Of a stretch of DNA of 64,000 nucleotides, positions 14,304 to 31,215 are shown in pieces. The DNA is from Marinibacterium profundimaris. GTDB taxonomy: Bacteria; Pseudomonadota; Alphaproteobacteria; Rhodobacterales; Rhodobacteraceae. Each line of letters begins with the position of its first letter. Position 1 is the first letter of the stretch. Under the pieces are notes generated by a model that did not search any database, had not been told where the DNA came from, and was given only the letters and a program-made list of their open reading frames with translations. The stretch is taken from positions 124,001-188,000 of the forward strand of contig NZ_AQQR01000006.1 of the NCBI RefSeq assembly GCF_002210095.1. The letters run 5' to 3'. The position numbers and the translations under genes were made by a program.

Positions 14304-14371
14304 GGTGGGGTGAAACCCCACCCTACGGCGGAGGTGGGCGTGGTGCCGGCGCGGTGGGTTGGAAACCCACC
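14304..14371. repeat. Pair of GGTGGG-type hairpins (dispersed repeat, copy 1)
   Basis: Two short palindromes lie between convergent genes. GGTGGGGT/ACCCCACC is at 14304-14322 and GGTGGGTT/AACCCACC is at 14353-14371; each has a 3-nt loop and is followed by CTAC. The same two hairpin types recur at 28635-28714. They probably act as bidirectional terminators or REP-like elements. Confidence 0.75.
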
Positions 14372-14393
14372 CTACACGGGCAGCCCGGAGCGG

Positions 14394-25513: not shown

Positions 25514-25720
25514 TCAGAGAGGTTTCAGATCGCCCGCCATCGTGCGCCCGTCGCGCCCCTCGATCAACTCGTATCCGATCTTCTGATTGTCGGCGAGCCC
25601 GGTCAGGCCGGACCGCTCCACGGCAGAAATGTGCACGAACACATCCTTGCCGCCTTCATCGGGGGCAATGAACCCGTACCCCTTGGTGGTATTGAACCAT
25701 TTCACGGTGCCAGTCGGCAT
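25514..25720 (-). CDS. Cold-shock-domain protein
   Basis: A 68-aa single OB-fold nucleic-acid chaperone. RNP1 is KGYGFIAPD and RNP2 is DVFVHISAV, with the opening GTVKWFNTTKGYGF typical of CspA proteins. The gene is divergent from the ArsC-like gene, and its ATG is preceded by AAAGGAGAC. Whether it responds to cold cannot be told; several Csp paralogues are usual in this group. Confidence 0.95.
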   Translation of the reverse strand: MPTGTVKWFNTTKGYGFIAPDEGGKDVFVHISAVERSGLTGLADNQKIGYELIEGRDGRTMAGDLKPL

Positions 25721-25938
25721 GTCCCGTGTCTCCTTTCACCTTTGGTCGTTCAATCGCAAATCCATGCGATCATGCGTAAAACCGGCATGAACATCATCGG
25801 TCCGGGTTGGCAGAGACCGAAGGTTGACATGACGATTGACGCCTTTTGAGTGTCGCACGGCTTAGGGAAAAATCAAGGTTAAGACCTGTGAATTCCGGGG
25901 GCTGGCATTTATTTCGACTTTGGAAATGAGGAAAAGAT

Positions 25939-26256
25939 ATGCGGATTTACGGAATAAAGACCTGTGATACCTGCCGAAAGGCAATTCGGGCGTTCCCTTA
26001 TGCCCAATTTATCGACATTCGCGCCTCCGGCCTGCCTGATGCGCTCAGGGCGCGTGCCTTGGAAGAGTTCGGGGAGGCGTTGATCAACCGCAGGTCGACA
26101 ACTTGGCGGGAGCTGGACGCGGCAGAGCGCGAAAGGGCGCCGCAGGATCTGTTGTCCGATCACCCGGTGTTGATGAAACGGCCCCTGATCGAGGATGACG
26201 AGGACGGGCTGCACCTGGGCTGGACGAAGGAGGTCCAGGCGGCTCTGGGCGTGTGA
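25939..26256 (+). CDS. ArsC/Spx-family (YffB-like) thioredoxin-fold protein
   Basis: A 105-aa protein of the ArsC/Spx/YffB family. The N-terminal KTCDTCRKA provides a CxxC motif. LINRRSTTWREL and LLSDHPVLMKRPLIED match the family's second half, where the LMKRP block is diagnostic. Despite the name, these short proteins are often not arsenate reductases, and a glutathione-dependent thiol role is possible. Its 5' part is less GC-rich than neighbours. It is convergent with doxX. Confidence 0.88.
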   Translation: MRIYGIKTCDTCRKAIRAFPYAQFIDIRASGLPDALRARALEEFGEALINRRSTTWRELDAAERERAPQDLLSDHPVLMKRPLIEDDEDGLHLGWTKEVQAALGV

Positions 26257-26340
26257 TCCGCGCGTGATCCGGGGGCCGCATGGCACGGCTCAGGGGCCGG
26301 CAAGGGACGGGCGCGCGGATCTGGCGGCGCGCCCGGTTCC

Positions 26341-26904
26341 TCAGCGCAGGCCGGGCGGCATGACCCGGCGCAGCAGCGCGTCGACGGACAGAAGCCCGCC
26401 GCCCTTCGCCACGAGATAGAGCAGCAGGAAGATCCAGAAGCTGCGCTGGTCGAGGATCAGGCTGCCCGAGGCGCCGTCGAACCAGGCGCCCAGTGACTGC
26501 GCGTCGGTCTGGCCCAGGCCATAGACATCGGTCAGCGACTGGATGACCACGAAGCCGATCATGCCGAGCGCGGCGAGCCGGGTGAAGAGACCCAGCACGA
26601 TCAGCGCGGGCAGCAGGAATTCGGCCCAGGTCCCCAGCACGGCAACCAGCCAGTGCCCGGTCCCCAGTTGCGACACGTCGTAAGAGACCGACTCCATCTG
26701 TTTCGGGAAGATCTGGGCATAGGCCCCGGTCGAGGGGTTCAGAAAGCCGAAGATACCGTCGCCCAGCTTGGTCACGGCCGAGTGCCAGAAATAGAAAAGC
26801 AGCACGGCGGCGAAGACGAAGCGTGCCAGGAGCGGCAACAGGACATCCCCCCCGGTCTCGACAAGGGCGAAGACCCGGTTGTGAAAGGAAAACAGGCGGT
26901 GCAT
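26341..26904 (-). CDS. DoxX-family membrane protein, last gene of the bufferin operon
   Basis: A 187-aa inner-membrane protein with four hydrophobic segments and the DoxX arrangement (LLPLLARFVFAAVLLFYFWH, GTWAEFLLPALIVLGLFTRL, SFWIFLLLYLVAKGGGLLSV). DoxX proteins commonly accompany DUF2282/DUF692/DUF2063 genes, as they do here. A role in electron transfer or membrane quinone-linked chemistry for the peptide pathway is inferred, not shown. It starts 18 bp after bufC. Confidence 0.87.
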   Translation of the reverse strand: MHRLFSFHNRVFALVETGGDVLLPLLARFVFAAVLLFYFWHSAVTKLGDGIFGFLNPSTGAYAQIFPKQMESVSYDVSQLGTGHWLVAVLGTWAEFLLPALIVLGLFTRLAALGMIGFVVIQSLTDVYGLGQTDAQSLGAWFDGASGSLILDQRSFWIFLLLYLVAKGGGLLSVDALLRRVMPPGLR

Positions 26905-26922
26905 CGGGGTGGTCCTTTTCAG

Positions 26923-27669
26923 TCAGTCCTGGTTGGCCAGGCCGGTGATCGCCGCGCCCCGGATCAGCAAGGCGAGGACGGGGCCGGGGTCGAAGCCCGG
27001 GGTCTCGGTGCAGGCGGTCTCGTGGGCCGCGGCGACGGTGGCACCGTCGACAAGCGCCTGCAGGAAGGCGGCGCCGCCGGGGGGCAGCCGCTGCGGCAGA
27101 GGATCGTAGGCGGGGCGCAGGATCACGACATCCTCCGGCCCGGGCTCTGGTTTCGGGGCGCCCTCTTCGGTGTTGAAGCGCCAGATCGCGTGGATCGGCC
27201 AGGCGGAGCGGATCAGCTGCATGGCGGGCGCCAGGCTGAGGGCGCTTTGCAGCAGTGTTTCGGGGGCGATGTCCGAAAGGTCGGCGGGCGCGGCATCGGC
27301 GGCGTGGTAGGCGCGGCGCATGGCCAGGTCGAGCCGGGCGATATCGGGCAGGTAGCCCAAGTGCGCCAGCTGCGGCATCCCGGCGAGGAAGTCGGGGAAG
27401 GCGCCGCCGTAATGCATCATCAGCGGTGTCTGAGGCGGGTGGGCGCGCAGGTAGAGCCGCGCGAGACCGTCCATGTTCTGCTTCCCCAGCAACCTGGCGA
27501 TGGTGGGGAAGGCGGTATGCAGCGCTTCGGTCAGCGAGACGGCGACATTGTTGCGATAGACGTCGAAGCGGCGGCCGGCCGGATGGTTGTCCGGACCGGA
27601 GAGCCCCTCTGGCACCGCGCTCTCGGGGTCCAGGAGCGCCGCGTGGAAGGTGGTCTGGTCCGGGCTCAT
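26923..27669 (-). CDS. bufC: BufC-like MNIO partner protein (DUF2063, HvfC family)
   Basis: A 248-aa soluble protein. The N-terminal DUF2063 domain (residues about 5-100) includes RRFDVYRNNVAVSLTEAL, AFPTIARLLG and YLRAHPPQTPLMMHYG. The C-terminal half is a second conserved region. The family was once labelled DNA-binding, but in MNIO operons it is the partner that presents the precursor peptide to the oxidase. It lies 7 bp after bufB and before doxX, so it belongs to the same operon. Confidence 0.88.
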   Translation of the reverse strand: MSPDQTTFHAALLDPESAVPEGLSGPDNHPAGRRFDVYRNNVAVSLTEALHTAFPTIARLLGKQNMDGLARLYLRAHPPQTPLMMHYGGAFPDFLAGMPQLAHLGYLPDIARLDLAMRRAYHAADAAPADLSDIAPETLLQSALSLAPAMQLIRSAWPIHAIWRFNTEEGAPKPEPGPEDVVILRPAYDPLPQRLPPGGAAFLQALVDGATVAAAHETACTETPGFDPGPVLALLIRGAAITGLANQD

Positions 27670-27676
27670 GGCAGTC

Positions 27677-28528
27677 TTATCCGGCGGGGACGAGGGCGTG
27701 GGCGGCCCGGGCGGCCTCGGCCTCGAGCACGGGCCAGTCGGGGACGTCCGTGTCCCATTCGATCAGCAGGGGGCGGGGCCCGGAGCGGGCCAGCGTGTAC
27801 GCCAGCAGCGCCCAGACCGGATCGGCGACCGCCCGGCCGTGGCTGTCTATCAGCAGCGGCGCGCCGTGGTCGTCGTGGTCCTCGTCATGGCCGCCGAGGT
27901 GGACTTCTCCGACGCGGTCCAGGGGGAAGGCGTCGATATAGCCCTGCGGCGAGAAGCCAAGGTTGGTGGCGGAGATGAAGACATTGTTGATGTCGAGCAG
28001 CAGGCCGCAGTCGGTGCGCTTCGACAGCTCGGCCAGGAACTCGGGCTCCGACCAGGTGCTGTCGTCGAAGGCGAGGTAGCTGGAGGGGTTCTCCAGCAGC
28101 ATGGGACGGCCGACATTGTCCTGTACCTGGTCGATATGGGCGGCGACGCGGGTAAGCGTGTCTTTGGTGTAGGGCAGCGGCAGGAGGTCGTTCAGGAAAT
28201 GGCTGTCGTGGGTGGACCAGGCGAGGTGCTCGGAAAAGCTGGCCGGGTCGAGCCAGGAGACGAGGTGTTTCAGCCGGGCCAGGTGGTCGGGGTCGAGCGG
28301 GCCCTCGCCGCCGATGGAGAGGCCGACGCCGTGGACGGAGACCGGAAAGCGTTCGGCCAGCGCGCGAAGCTGGGCAAGGGGGCGGCCGCCGTCGCCCATG
28401 TAGTTTTCGGCATGGATCTCGATCCACCGCACGGCGCCCGGGTTTTCGGTGATCGCCGCGAAATGCTGCGGCTTGAAGCCGACGCCGGGCGCGGCGGGAA
28501 GGCGGGTCGGGTGGCCGGTATCGAGCAT
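27677..28528 (-). CDS. bufB: MNIO-family peptide-modifying iron enzyme (DUF692, BufB-like)
   Basis: A 283-aa TIM-barrel multinuclear non-heme iron oxidase. Expected metal-site blocks are IEIHAENYMGDGG, VSVHGVGLSIGG, FSEHLAWSTHD, MLLENPSSY, LLLDINNVFISATNLGF and EVHLGGHDEDHDDH. Relatives (MbnB, BufB) oxidise cysteines of a precursor peptide, in bufferins to 5-thiooxazole groups. The start at 28528 gives the family N-terminus; the frame to 28675 covers hairpin repeats. Downstream of bufA1 by about 200 bp and immediately upstream of bufC. Confidence 0.92.
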   Translation of the reverse strand: MLDTGHPTRLPAAPGVGFKPQHFAAITENPGAVRWIEIHAENYMGDGGRPLAQLRALAERFPVSVHGVGLSIGGEGPLDPDHLARLKHLVSWLDPASFSEHLAWSTHDSHFLNDLLPLPYTKDTLTRVAAHIDQVQDNVGRPMLLENPSSYLAFDDSTWSEPEFLAELSKRTDCGLLLDINNVFISATNLGFSPQGYIDAFPLDRVGEVHLGGHDEDHDDHGAPLLIDSHGRAVADPVWALLAYTLARSGPRPLLIEWDTDVPDWPVLEAEAARAAHALVPAG

Positions 28529-28634
28529 GGGAGCCTCGGTTCGGTCTTCTGACGGTTTGCTGTCGGGCGCGCTGAACGGCGGGAAAGCGCGCCGTTCAGG
28601 TCTGTGTGGCGAGGGCAGCCGTGACGGCGCAGGC

Positions 28635-28714
28635 GGTGGGTTGGAAACCCACCCTACGGATATCTGCCGGGCCACGTCCGAGGGTCCGGGGGTAGGGTGG
28701 GGTTCTACCCCACC
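28635..28714. repeat. Pair of GGTGGG-type hairpins between bufA1 and bufB (copy 2)
   Basis: GGTGGGTT/AACCCACC (28635-28653) and GGTGGGGT/ACCCCACC (28696-28714), each with a 3-nt loop, sit in the 202-bp gap between bufA1 and bufB. They match the two hairpin types at 14304-14371, here with the second in inverted flank orientation (GTAGGGTGGGG). In mRNA they could stabilise bufA1 or reduce read-through into bufB. Confidence 0.75.
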
Positions 28715-28730
28715 GCCCCCGCAAAAGGCC

Positions 28731-29036
28731 TTACGCGGAGGGCAGATCGCGATCGAGCGGTTCCAGCGACCCGTGGCGCGCGGTGCCGTCGGCTGCGGCG
28801 GGCAGGGTCATGTCGGTGCAGGTGCCCGCGTCGACCAGGGTCCAGGCGTTACCCTGGTAATCCACGGTCGAGGTGCCGGCGCAGGTGGTACCCGGTCCGG
28901 CGGCGCAATCGTTCTCGCCGGCGAGCGACACGCCATAGCACTTCTCCTTGGCCTGGGCCTCGGCGGTGGTGGCATGGGCGGTCAGGGCCGCGGCGATGGA
29001 GGCGGCGACGGTCATGGTTTTCACGGGATTCGACAT
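28731..29036 (-). CDS. bufA1: Bufferin precursor, DUF2282 family (BufA1-like)
   Basis: A 101-aa precursor peptide with a signal peptide ([21 protein letters not shown]) and the DUF2282 core: [34 protein letters not shown] and DAGTC. The four core cysteines are C33, C44, C52 and C73. In characterised bufferins the two central cysteines are oxidised by the MNIO enzyme, and the exported product binds copper. An AGAGGAG site precedes the ATG. It is the first gene of bufA1-bufB-bufC-doxX and is separated from bufB by a pair of hairpins. Confidence 0.92.
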
Positions 29037-29191
29037 CTCTGTTCTCCTCTGGGTGGGTGCCGTTTATGCACGCAGCGTAAACCGACCCGGTCGCGCGTTG
29101 GAACTCACGAGCCTGTTGGTCACGCCCCTGTCACTCCACGCGAACGGCGCGCAGGTGCAAGATACTGAAAATCATTGAGGAATAAAGGCGT
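29037..29191 (-). promoter_or_regulatory. Probable bufA1 promoter region
   Basis: The 150-bp stretch between the thrS 3' hairpin and bufA1 should hold the operon promoter on the minus strand. I could not fix -35/-10 elements. Known relatives are often under an ECF sigma factor (SigF/NrsF type), but no such gene lies in this window. Confidence 0.35.
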
Positions 29192-29218
29192 CAGCCGGGC
29201 AATGTCATATCCCGGCTG
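29192..29218 (-). terminator. Terminator-like hairpin after thrS
   Basis: CAGCCGGG and CCCGGCTG (8-bp stem, 11-nt loop) lie 17 bp after the thrS stop. On the minus strand they are followed by ACGCCTTTATTCC, a weak T run. This should separate thrS from bufA1, which has the same orientation. Confidence 0.6.
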
Positions 29219-29235
29219 TCGCGGATCACGGATTG

Positions 29236-31215
29236 TTACAGAAGATCCGGGGCCGTCGCCTCGGTTCCCAGGGCCTTTGTTACATCCTCAAGGCTCATCA
29301 CCTCGGTCTTCTTCTCGCCCAGCCGGCGGATAGACACGGTGCGCTCCTCGACCTCGCGGTGGCCGATGGCGAGGATCACCGGGACCTTGCCGACCGAATG
29401 CTCGCGCACCTTGTAGTTGATCTTTTCGTTGCGGATGTCGGCCTCGGCCCGGACACCGGCGGCGGTCAGCTTGGCCACGACCTCGTTCACGTAGTCATCC
29501 GCTTCCGAGGTGATCGAGGCCACGACGACCTGCCGCGGCGCGAGCCAGAACGGCAGCTTGCCTTCCCAGTTCTCGATCAGGATGCCGATGAACCGCTCGA
29601 AGGATCCAAGGCAGGCGCGGTGCAGCATGAAGGGGCGATGCTTGTCGCCGTCCGCCGCGATATAGGACGCGCCCAGCCGTTCCGGCAGGTTGGGGTCCAC
29701 CTGGAAGGTACCGCATTGCCAGACCCGGCCGATCGCGTCGGTCAGGTAGAAGTCCAGCTTCGGGCCGTAGAATGCACCGTCGCCCGGCTCCAGCGTATAG
29801 TCGCGGCCCACCGCCTTGATCGCGTTTTCCAGCGCGTTCTCGACGTAATCCCAGCTCTCTTCCGTGCCGACGCGCTTTTCGGGGCGCGTGGCAAAGCGGA
29901 TCTCGAAATCGTCGAAGCCGAGTTCCTTGTAGACATTCGCGAGGAAGTCGATGAAGCGGGCGCATTCCTCCTGGATCTGATCCTCGGTGCAGAAGATATG
30001 CGCATCGTCCTGGGTAAAGCCGCGCACGCGCATGATGCCGTGCAGGGCGCCGGAGGGTTCGAACCGCGAGCACGATCCGAATTCGGCCAGCCGCAGGGGC
30101 AGGTCGCGGTAGGATTTGAGGCCCTGGTTGAACACCTGCACGTGGCAGGGGCAGTTCATCGGCTTCAGCGCGTTGATGCGCGTCTGCTCCTTGTTCCGGG
30201 CGGAGGCGTCGTCGGTCTCGCCGTCGCGGCTTTCATCCACCTCGACGATGAACATGTGGTGCTGGTACTTCTCCCAGTGGCCCGAGGCCTCCCACAGCTT
30301 GCGGTCGACGACCTGCGGCGTGTTGATCTCGCGATACCCACCCGCGCGCTGCTTGCGGCGCATGTAATCCTGCAGCGTGGTGTAGATCGTCCAGCCGCCC
30401 GGGTGCCAGAACACCTGGCCCGGCGCCTCTTCCTGCATGTGGAACAGGTCCATCTCGCGGCCGAGCTTGCGGTGGTCGCGCTTGGCGGCCTCCTCGAGCA
30501 TGTGCAGATGCGCCTTGAGCTTTTCCTTGCCGGTGAAGGCCACGCCATAGATCCGCTGCAGCATCTGGCGGTTGCTGTCGCCGCGCCAGTAGGCGCCGGC
30601 GATCGACATCAGCTTGAACGCATCGGCCGGCACCTGCCCGGTGTGCTGCAGGTGCGGGCCGCGGCAGAGATCCTGCCAGCCGCCATGCCAGTACATGCGC
30701 AGCGGTTCGTCGCCCGGAATGGCGTCGATCAGCTCGACCTTGTAGGGCTCGTTGTTGTCCTTGTAATACTGGACGGCCTTTTCGCGGCCCCAGACCTCGG
30801 TGGTCACGGGCTCGCGCTTGTTGATGATTTCCTTCATCTTCTTCTCGATCTCGCCGAGATCTTCGGGCGTGAAGGGCTCTTCGCGGTCGAAATCGTAGTA
30901 CCAGCCGTTGTCGATGACGGGGCCGATGGTGACCTTTGTGTCGGGCCAGATCTCCTGCACGGCACGCGCCATGATATGAGCGAGGTCATGGCGCACCAGC
31001 TCGTTCGCCTGAACCTCGTCCTTCATCGTGTGGATGGCGATGTCGGCATCCGTGTCGATCGGCCACTGAAGATCCCAGTGCTTGCCGTTCACGGTGGCGG
31101 AGATGGCCTTCTTGGCCAGGGAGGTGGAGATATCGGCAGCGACCTCGCCGGGCGTGATGCCGGCGTCATAGGAGCGCGAATTGCCATCGGGAAGGGTGAG
31201 AGAGACTTGGGCCAT
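29236..31215 (-). CDS. thrS: Threonyl-tRNA synthetase
   Basis: Class II aminoacyl-tRNA synthetase charging tRNA-Thr. The 659-aa protein has a TGS domain (residues 1-63), an editing domain ([18 protein letters not shown] and [15 protein letters not shown]), a catalytic core with [10 protein letters not shown] (zinc Cys), [17 protein letters not shown] (motif 2) and [17 protein letters not shown] (motif 3), and a C-terminal anticodon-binding domain. Start and length are normal. It is divergent from an alpha/beta hydrolase gene. No T-box leader was recognised, as expected outside Gram-positives. Confidence 0.97.

Follow-up and report, generated by a model that had tools for sequence, protein, structure and literature searches.

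A bufferin-1 operon of Marinibacterium profundimaris with a predicted CenR operator upstream of bufA

The 64,000-nucleotide stretch of Marinibacterium profundimaris DNA analysed here (the window) carries a four-gene operon on its minus strand at 26341-29036. A first-pass annotation had described it as an operon for a bufferin, a ribosomally synthesized and post-translationally modified peptide (RiPP), and all four genes, bufA, bufB, bufC and doxX, lie where that annotation had put them. The locus is an ordinary, complete bufferin-1 operon of an already described kind, present in a single copy according to genome searches, which found one DUF2282 gene and one MNIO gene. The genes were the expected find; what is new is the promoter of bufA, where a tandem dyad element matches the published binding sites of the envelope-stress regulator CenR.

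The precursor gene bufA (28731..29036, minus strand, as are all genes of the operon) encodes a DUF2282 protein of 101 amino acids (PF10048, 5.5e-24, 84.4 bits against a cut-off of 22.4), with cysteines at positions 33, 44, 52 and 73 as the first-pass annotation had given them. Codons C44 to C52 (28881..28907, minus strand) span the two central cysteines, which are the presumed thiooxazole sites and are invariant in the 27-row alignment A3. At the N-terminus, a hydrophobic helix, placed at residues 8-22 by a model of low confidence, and an AEAQA-K junction suggest a signal peptide, judged by inspection alone. The Pfam match stops at residue 77 and leaves out the C-terminal 11-residue tail (28734..28766, minus strand). 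The first-pass annotation had raised the possibility that this acidic tail is lineage-specific, but an RDxP tail occurs in 77 of 83 BufA sequences and is therefore a family feature. Among the six sequences without RDxP, four (L035, L036, L037 and L047) come from loci that adjoin an extracytoplasmic function (ECF) sigma factor gene, and in these the RD part is wholly absent.

The second gene, bufB (27677..28528), encodes the MNIO maturase, with 283 residues counted from the ATG (PF05114, 3.5e-103; NF050167, 372 bits against 310; PDB 3bww, E 3.7e-47). Loss of the MNIO active-site residues had been named beforehand as evidence that would speak against a bufferin. In the alignment, polar BufB residues are invariant in 158 of 158 sequences, including H66, E100, H101, E146, N147, D179, N181, N182, H210, H214, D228, H230, E257 and D259 (numbered from the ATG), so no such loss was seen. 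The partner gene bufC (26923..27669; PF09836, 4.6e-26) gave no match in a profile search of PDB sequences, though its AlphaFold2 model (pLDDT, the predicted local distance difference test score, 91.2) matched the folds of 8hi7_A (TglHI, E 6.7e-6) and 3dee (NGO1945, E 1.2e-4), both with probability 1.00. As judged from the model, BufC is a DUF2063 domain joined to a domain of the RiPP recognition element (RRE) type, a partner arrangement called "PME-type 1" (PMC12452194). The last gene, doxX (26341..26904), encodes a DoxX membrane protein (PF07681, 9e-8, 33.1 bits against 23.6). The NCBIfam models BufA2 (21 against 60), HvfC (53 against 142) and HvfX (26 against 80) were not passed by BufA, BufC and DoxX, respectively, as expected for the Buf1 set. 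Every computable feature of the operon (a precursor with four cysteines, BufB above its cut-off, the partner fold, DoxX and the order A-B-C-doxX) was found, and the bufferin-1 assignment is supported.

In 198 genomes drawn from the family, DUF2282 occurs in 140 and MNIO in 139; the two co-occur in 139 genomes, none has MNIO only, and the single difference between the sets is the genome G130, with DUF2282 only. From these relatives 80 loci were fetched (L034-L113), which together with the window and two tandem copies (L056 and L097 each have two bufA genes) make up the set of 83 BufA sequences. The order bufA-bufB-bufC-doxX on one strand is kept in 79 of the 80 fetched relatives and in the window. 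The BufB alignment and tree omit L113 as well as L042 (G149) and L097 (G100), where the bufB frame is split by sequencing error or decay and the other three genes are present. A further set of named relatives, taken as the best 80 among the BufB matches listed and overlapping partly with the fetched set, includes Ruegeria, Leisingera, Phaeobacter, Salipiger, Roseovarius and similar genera, which makes the Rhodobacteraceae the probable family of the window; the gene order is the same in 76 of these 80 loci, two being out of order by the start position of the open reading frames and two missing one gene. The four cysteines are in register in 82 of the 83 BufA sequences, as read by eye in the alignment and from cysteine counts. 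In G130 a lone DUF2282 gene (L113:4429-4869) was seen and no MNIO was found in the genome. Its BufA has lost both central cysteines and keeps the outer pair, a signal-like region at the N-terminus and most of its tail, so the modifiable cysteines and the enzyme are absent together. This makes G130 a natural control for the cysteine requirement of the MNIO enzyme.

Upstream of bufA, 80 regions were compared (79 relatives and the window; the second tandem copies L056_2 and L097_2 and the orphan L113 were left out). Motif discovery in the 230 bases before the gene returned cTgACGcgc.CGTGA..CACGggcccGTGA.TgG, with a log-likelihood of 1053 against 121-125 for three shuffled sets. This 36-bp element consists of two TNAC-N6-GTGA-like dyads and is followed by a -10 box. 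In the window it lies at 29099..29134 on the minus strand (reading from 29134 to 29099), with an upstream dyad TGAC-N6-GTGA at 29120..29133, found by both motif discovery and the CenR matrix described below, and a downstream dyad CAAC-N6-GTGA at 29105..29118, found by motif discovery. The predicted -10 box TACGCT occupies 29074..29079 (minus strand), and the -35 sequence of the window is not recognisable as such (TCCAAC). In 34 of 57 aligned sites a TANNNT sequence occurs 18 or 19 bases past the element's end, whereas any other offset is seen at most once. The end of the element therefore coincides with the -35 position, a site of activator binding.

Exact TNAC-N6-GTGA sequences occur in 49 of 80 upstream regions of bufA, against one of 60 for the cold-shock gene csp and none of 58 for arsC, and across the aligned regions the spacer bases vary while the half-sites and the -10 box stay. 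In this genome the tandem pattern is found once with no mismatch, at bufA, and ten times with one or two mismatches. A sequence model of the element (R1) had its only strong match in this genome at bufA (E 2.8e-4) and gave a bufA site with E < 1e-3 in 12 of 19 genomes searched; in the four genomes without DUF2282 (G001, G012, G048 and G199) no R1 match was better than E 0.36. The match with a single mismatch in this genome (L115) was rejected, since it lies inside a porin reading frame and probably arose by chance.

For comparison with CenR, a matrix was built from the 31 Rhodobacter sphaeroides sites in Table 1 of PMC9275681 and used with a threshold of 7 bits. Within 200 bases before bufA, at least one site was found in 75 of 80 regions and at least two in 44, whereas the corresponding means over 100 single-base shuffles were 15.3 and 1.7 (maxima 23 and 5) and the same regions read backwards gave 10 and one. 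Between -140 and -80 the matrix matched 70 of 80 bufA regions, eight of 60 csp regions and four of 58 arsC regions. In the window the element scores 11.9 bits at -97. For the named loci, bufA was found in 79 of 80 (none in L312), and all 79 had a match, 57 of them with at least two sites. The sequence TSACRNNNNYGTGA is present with zero or one mismatch of 10 in 75 of the 80 bufA loci; a published example of a CenR site is TGACGCGGGCGTGAA, before RSP_1199 (PMC9275681). As in the R. sphaeroides CenR (RSP_0847) regulon, a TSACR-N4-YGTGA-like site stands upstream of the promoter; in that regulon the -35 sequence comes directly after the site in 28 of the 31 published cases (PMC9275681). The bufA element differs in having two dyads in tandem, at a spacing of 15 bp. 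The Sinorhizobium meliloti inverted repeat AGTCAC-N6-GTGACT, likened by its authors to the CenR sequence (PMC9561847), has the same shape as the bufA dyad.

A candidate for CenR itself is encoded in this genome at G000:C34:442760-443407 and is 89.6-99.1% identical to its copies in 11 other genomes. In all 12 genomes a box precedes the candidate gene, ACACG-N4-CGTGA in 10 and ACACG-N4-TGTGA in two, about 100-108 bases before codon 7, or some 82-90 bases ahead of the ATG; R. sphaeroides cenR is preceded by the published site ACACGAGCGCGTGAG (PMC9275681). The candidate has aspartates at 51 and 56, positions that agree with the numbering of that paper. From the box, the conservation and the positions of D51 and D56, we presume that this protein is CenR. 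A match to the CenR box stands at an activating place at the bufA promoter, and on this basis we predict that CenR binds there and that bufA expression is activated by CenKR. A full-text literature search, with most subscription journals outside it, found no report of CenR control of bufferins.

Several observations weigh against this interpretation. The downstream dyad of the window scores below 7 bits with the CenR matrix, and the spacing of the two dyads is 15 bp, not 10-11. With the 36-base motif the score of the copy from the same genus (L034) is just 13.6, the second dyad of this copy having decayed, and R1 gives no bufA site at E < 0.19 in G198, G010 and G149, three of the 15 bufA-bearing genomes. 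The matrix also has a sizeable background, with sites in the 200 bases before csp in 22 of 60 loci and before arsC in 14 of 58. The positive control failed: tolQ is a published CenR target, and a site of at least 7 bits lay within 330 bases of it in four of 12 genomes and near -132 in two. The R. sphaeroides CenR table in PMC9275681 lists no gene annotated as bufferin, the species itself not having been checked for a bufferin gene. The structure of BufA was predicted poorly (pLDDT 44).

The family also contains a second promoter design. The bufferin 1 operon of Caulobacter vibrioides, which we take to be the SigF-dependent CC3254-CC3257 operon described in PMC3511200, is built in the same way, with a DUF2282 precursor with four cysteines, an MNIO enzyme, a DUF2063-type partner and DoxX in the same order. 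The window differs from it in combining the tandem element with a -10 box of the sigma-70 type. Nothing indicative of SigF/NrsF-type control was seen here: the fetched region of the window has no ECF gene and no GTAAC-type promoter, and NrsF was not found in this genome. An ECF sigma gene adjoins the operon in nine of the 80 loci, and all nine have a GTAAC-N15..18-CG[AT] sequence, close to the Caulobacter sigF sequence GTAACC-N16-CGAA (PMC3511200). This pattern occurs in 12 of the 80 loci in all (shuffles gave a mean of 1.0 and a maximum of 5), including L043 and L062 and one locus with the tandem element. The tandem element without an ECF gene is found in 59 loci, the ECF gene in nine, both in none and neither in 12, L043 and L062 among the last; the exclusion has a Fisher p of 1.3e-6, a value which ignores shared descent. 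A CenR-matrix site is still present in eight of the nine ECF loci. On a BufB tree of 78 rows, made by a quick method, the ECF label needs three changes, and seven of eight ECF rows fall in one eight-row clade. Within a single family the operon thus comes with two designs of regulation.

Taken together, the locus is probably best explained as a bufferin-1 operon with a CenR-activated promoter of the sigma-70 type. We consider it rather likely, with somewhat less assurance, that most members of this family (the Rhodobacteraceae, going by the named relatives) have the copper-buffering RiPP under direct control of the essential CenKR envelope-stress system. The tandem CenR operator would exert this control from the position at which one clade has retained a sigF-type promoter. 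If so, a large RiPP family would be tied to an essential envelope regulator, with bufA as a concrete readout promoter, and copper (or thiol) damage in the periplasm would be a candidate for the signal of CenK, described as unknown in PMC10470753. To ask which metal controls the operon may be to put the question wrongly, since the promoter points to the envelope-stress regulator CenR and not to a dedicated metal sensor.

In the mechanism that we propose, CenR of CenKR would bind the two TNAC-N6-GTGA-like dyads ending at -35 and activate transcription from the sigma-70-type promoter, whose predicted -10 box lies some 40 bases ahead of the start codon of bufA. By analogy with characterised relatives, BufA would be made with a Sec-type signal, and a BufB-BufC complex would oxidise its two central cysteines to 5-thiooxazoles before export. 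A disulphide would form between C33 and C73, the mature peptide would sequester copper in the periplasm, and DoxX would serve as an accessory membrane protein. For relatives, conversion of cysteine to 5-thiooxazole by an MNIO enzyme and its partner, with an ultraviolet readout near 305 nm, is described in PMC13097082, the diiron cofactor of MNIO enzymes in PMC13419390, and a disulphide of the outer cysteines, the counterpart of C33-C73, in a figure legend of PMC12452194. Thiooxazoles on the central cysteines and copper binding are thus suggested here by papers on relatives (PMC12452194, PMC13097082). The captophorins (fontiphorin, oxazolin and gonophorin) similarly combine an MNIO enzyme and a PME-type-1 partner acting on a cysteine peptide. 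BufA differs from them in its DUF2282 core with two central cysteines in place of EGKCG repeats. By our reading, the invariant D259 of BufB stands at the place of Asp249, the proposed catalytic base of FonB (PMC13097082), and it is followed by Thr, not by Phe as in the captophorins.

The alternative that survives best concerns the function of the peptide, which might serve another metal or an envelope role that does not involve copper. MerC-Buf1 fusions exist (PMC12452194), the sigF-dependent induction in Caulobacter is by chromate and cadmium (PMC3511200), and a BufA without central cysteines has been kept in G130. However, copper binding is what has been reported for the bufferins characterised to date (PMC12452194) and nothing in the window names another metal, so we regard this possibility as rather unlikely.

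It is less probable again that the operator is bound by a copper-responsive regulator of the CopR/CusR/AgrR type and that the operon is directly induced by copper. Copper is the ligand of the characterised bufferins (PMC12452194), and the AgrR box ATKACANNNNTGTMAT (PMC7380067) has the same inverted-repeat shape as the bufA dyad, with a 4-base spacer, extra half-sites and a comparable position at the promoter; a footprint of AgrR from -74 to -40 spans about the place of the element (PMC7380067). On the other hand, the half-sites of the AgrR/CopR-type box are A/T-rich and it matches poorly at bufA, where its best match has at least three mismatches of 12 in 78 of the 80 loci, against zero or one of 10 in 75 loci for TSACRNNNNYGTGA. 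Furthermore, none of 12 genomes, that of the window included, has a CopR-type regulator above the curated TIGR01387 cut-off; the nearest were one regulator each in G038, G198 and G070, with 236-244 bits of the 279 required. The TIGR01387 result and the AgrR-box mismatches together make a CopR-type regulator of bufA unlikely.

We give slightly less credence still to control of bufA by some other regulator of the OmpR type whose specificity resembles that of CenR, such as the orphan L200 (G000:C1:1014531-1015196). This gene has three CenR-like dyads upstream, as expected of a gene under autoregulation or of another target. Its product, however, is 30% identical to the CenR candidate, and its nearest sequence among the compared regulator loci is a 49% identical paralogue in the same genome, followed by one at 38.7%. 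With a next-best identity this low, no orthologue of L200 was seen in the other 11 genomes, and the bufA element is by contrast found family-wide. Homologues of the L198 and L200 regulators were not found beside the operons. ChvI was rejected as the regulator, as its published motifs TTGC-N3-GCAA and GCC-N8-GCC (PMC9731502) do not fit. Least probable by a clear step is that the upstream conservation is inherited background of a constitutive operon without a regulator, for although the relatives share descent and often neighbourhood (thrS homologues in 54 of the 80 fetched regions), the spacers vary while half-sites and -10 box persist, and in the same loci the regions ahead of csp and arsC are without the element at this place.

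Apart from the predicted CenR-type promoter, a second feature may act on the relative amounts of the operon's products. In 53 of the 80 loci the 60 bases that follow the bufA stop codon have a better fold than dinucleotide shuffles (z < -2); for the final 60 bases of bufA this holds in one of 80. For the window the same 60 bases have a z of -0.8, which is not significant, and its whole 202-base junction has a z of -3.85, none of 200 shuffles being as good. A stem-loop predicted after bufA probably limits the enzyme transcript relative to the precursor, so that precursor transcripts would outnumber those of the enzymes. The bufA-bufB junction of the window holds a pair of inverted hairpin repeats (28635..28714, no strand assigned), with copies at 28635-28658 and 28692-28714. 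The repeat GGTGGGNTNNNANCCCACCCTACG has 90 matches in the genome with at most two mismatches, often in pairs (a backward control gave none), and a second pair within the window lies at 14304-14376; we label it as similar to repetitive extragenic palindromes and bacterial interspersed mosaic elements (REP/BIME-like). At Rfam gathering thresholds nothing was found in 25900-29500.

A search with R1 for a second regulon member in the 19 genomes returned a single site that looked real, G197:C4:2775, before a YHS-domain gene. There (L185:2276-2855) a full tandem element and then a TTAGGCT stretch precede a YHS-domain-like gene with a Tat-like signal, the domain being named by our own reading, and this gene is a possible second member of the regulon. 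Within the searched stretch of 26 YHS loci, the G197 gene included, the full element occurs in this one and a single dyad of more than 8 bits in eight others. No homologue of the YHS protein was found next to the bufferin operons. In the window the operon is adjoined by a cold-shock gene (25514-25720) and an ArsC-family gene (25939-26253), and among the 80 fetched relatives csp homologues are present in 59 regions and arsC homologues in 57.

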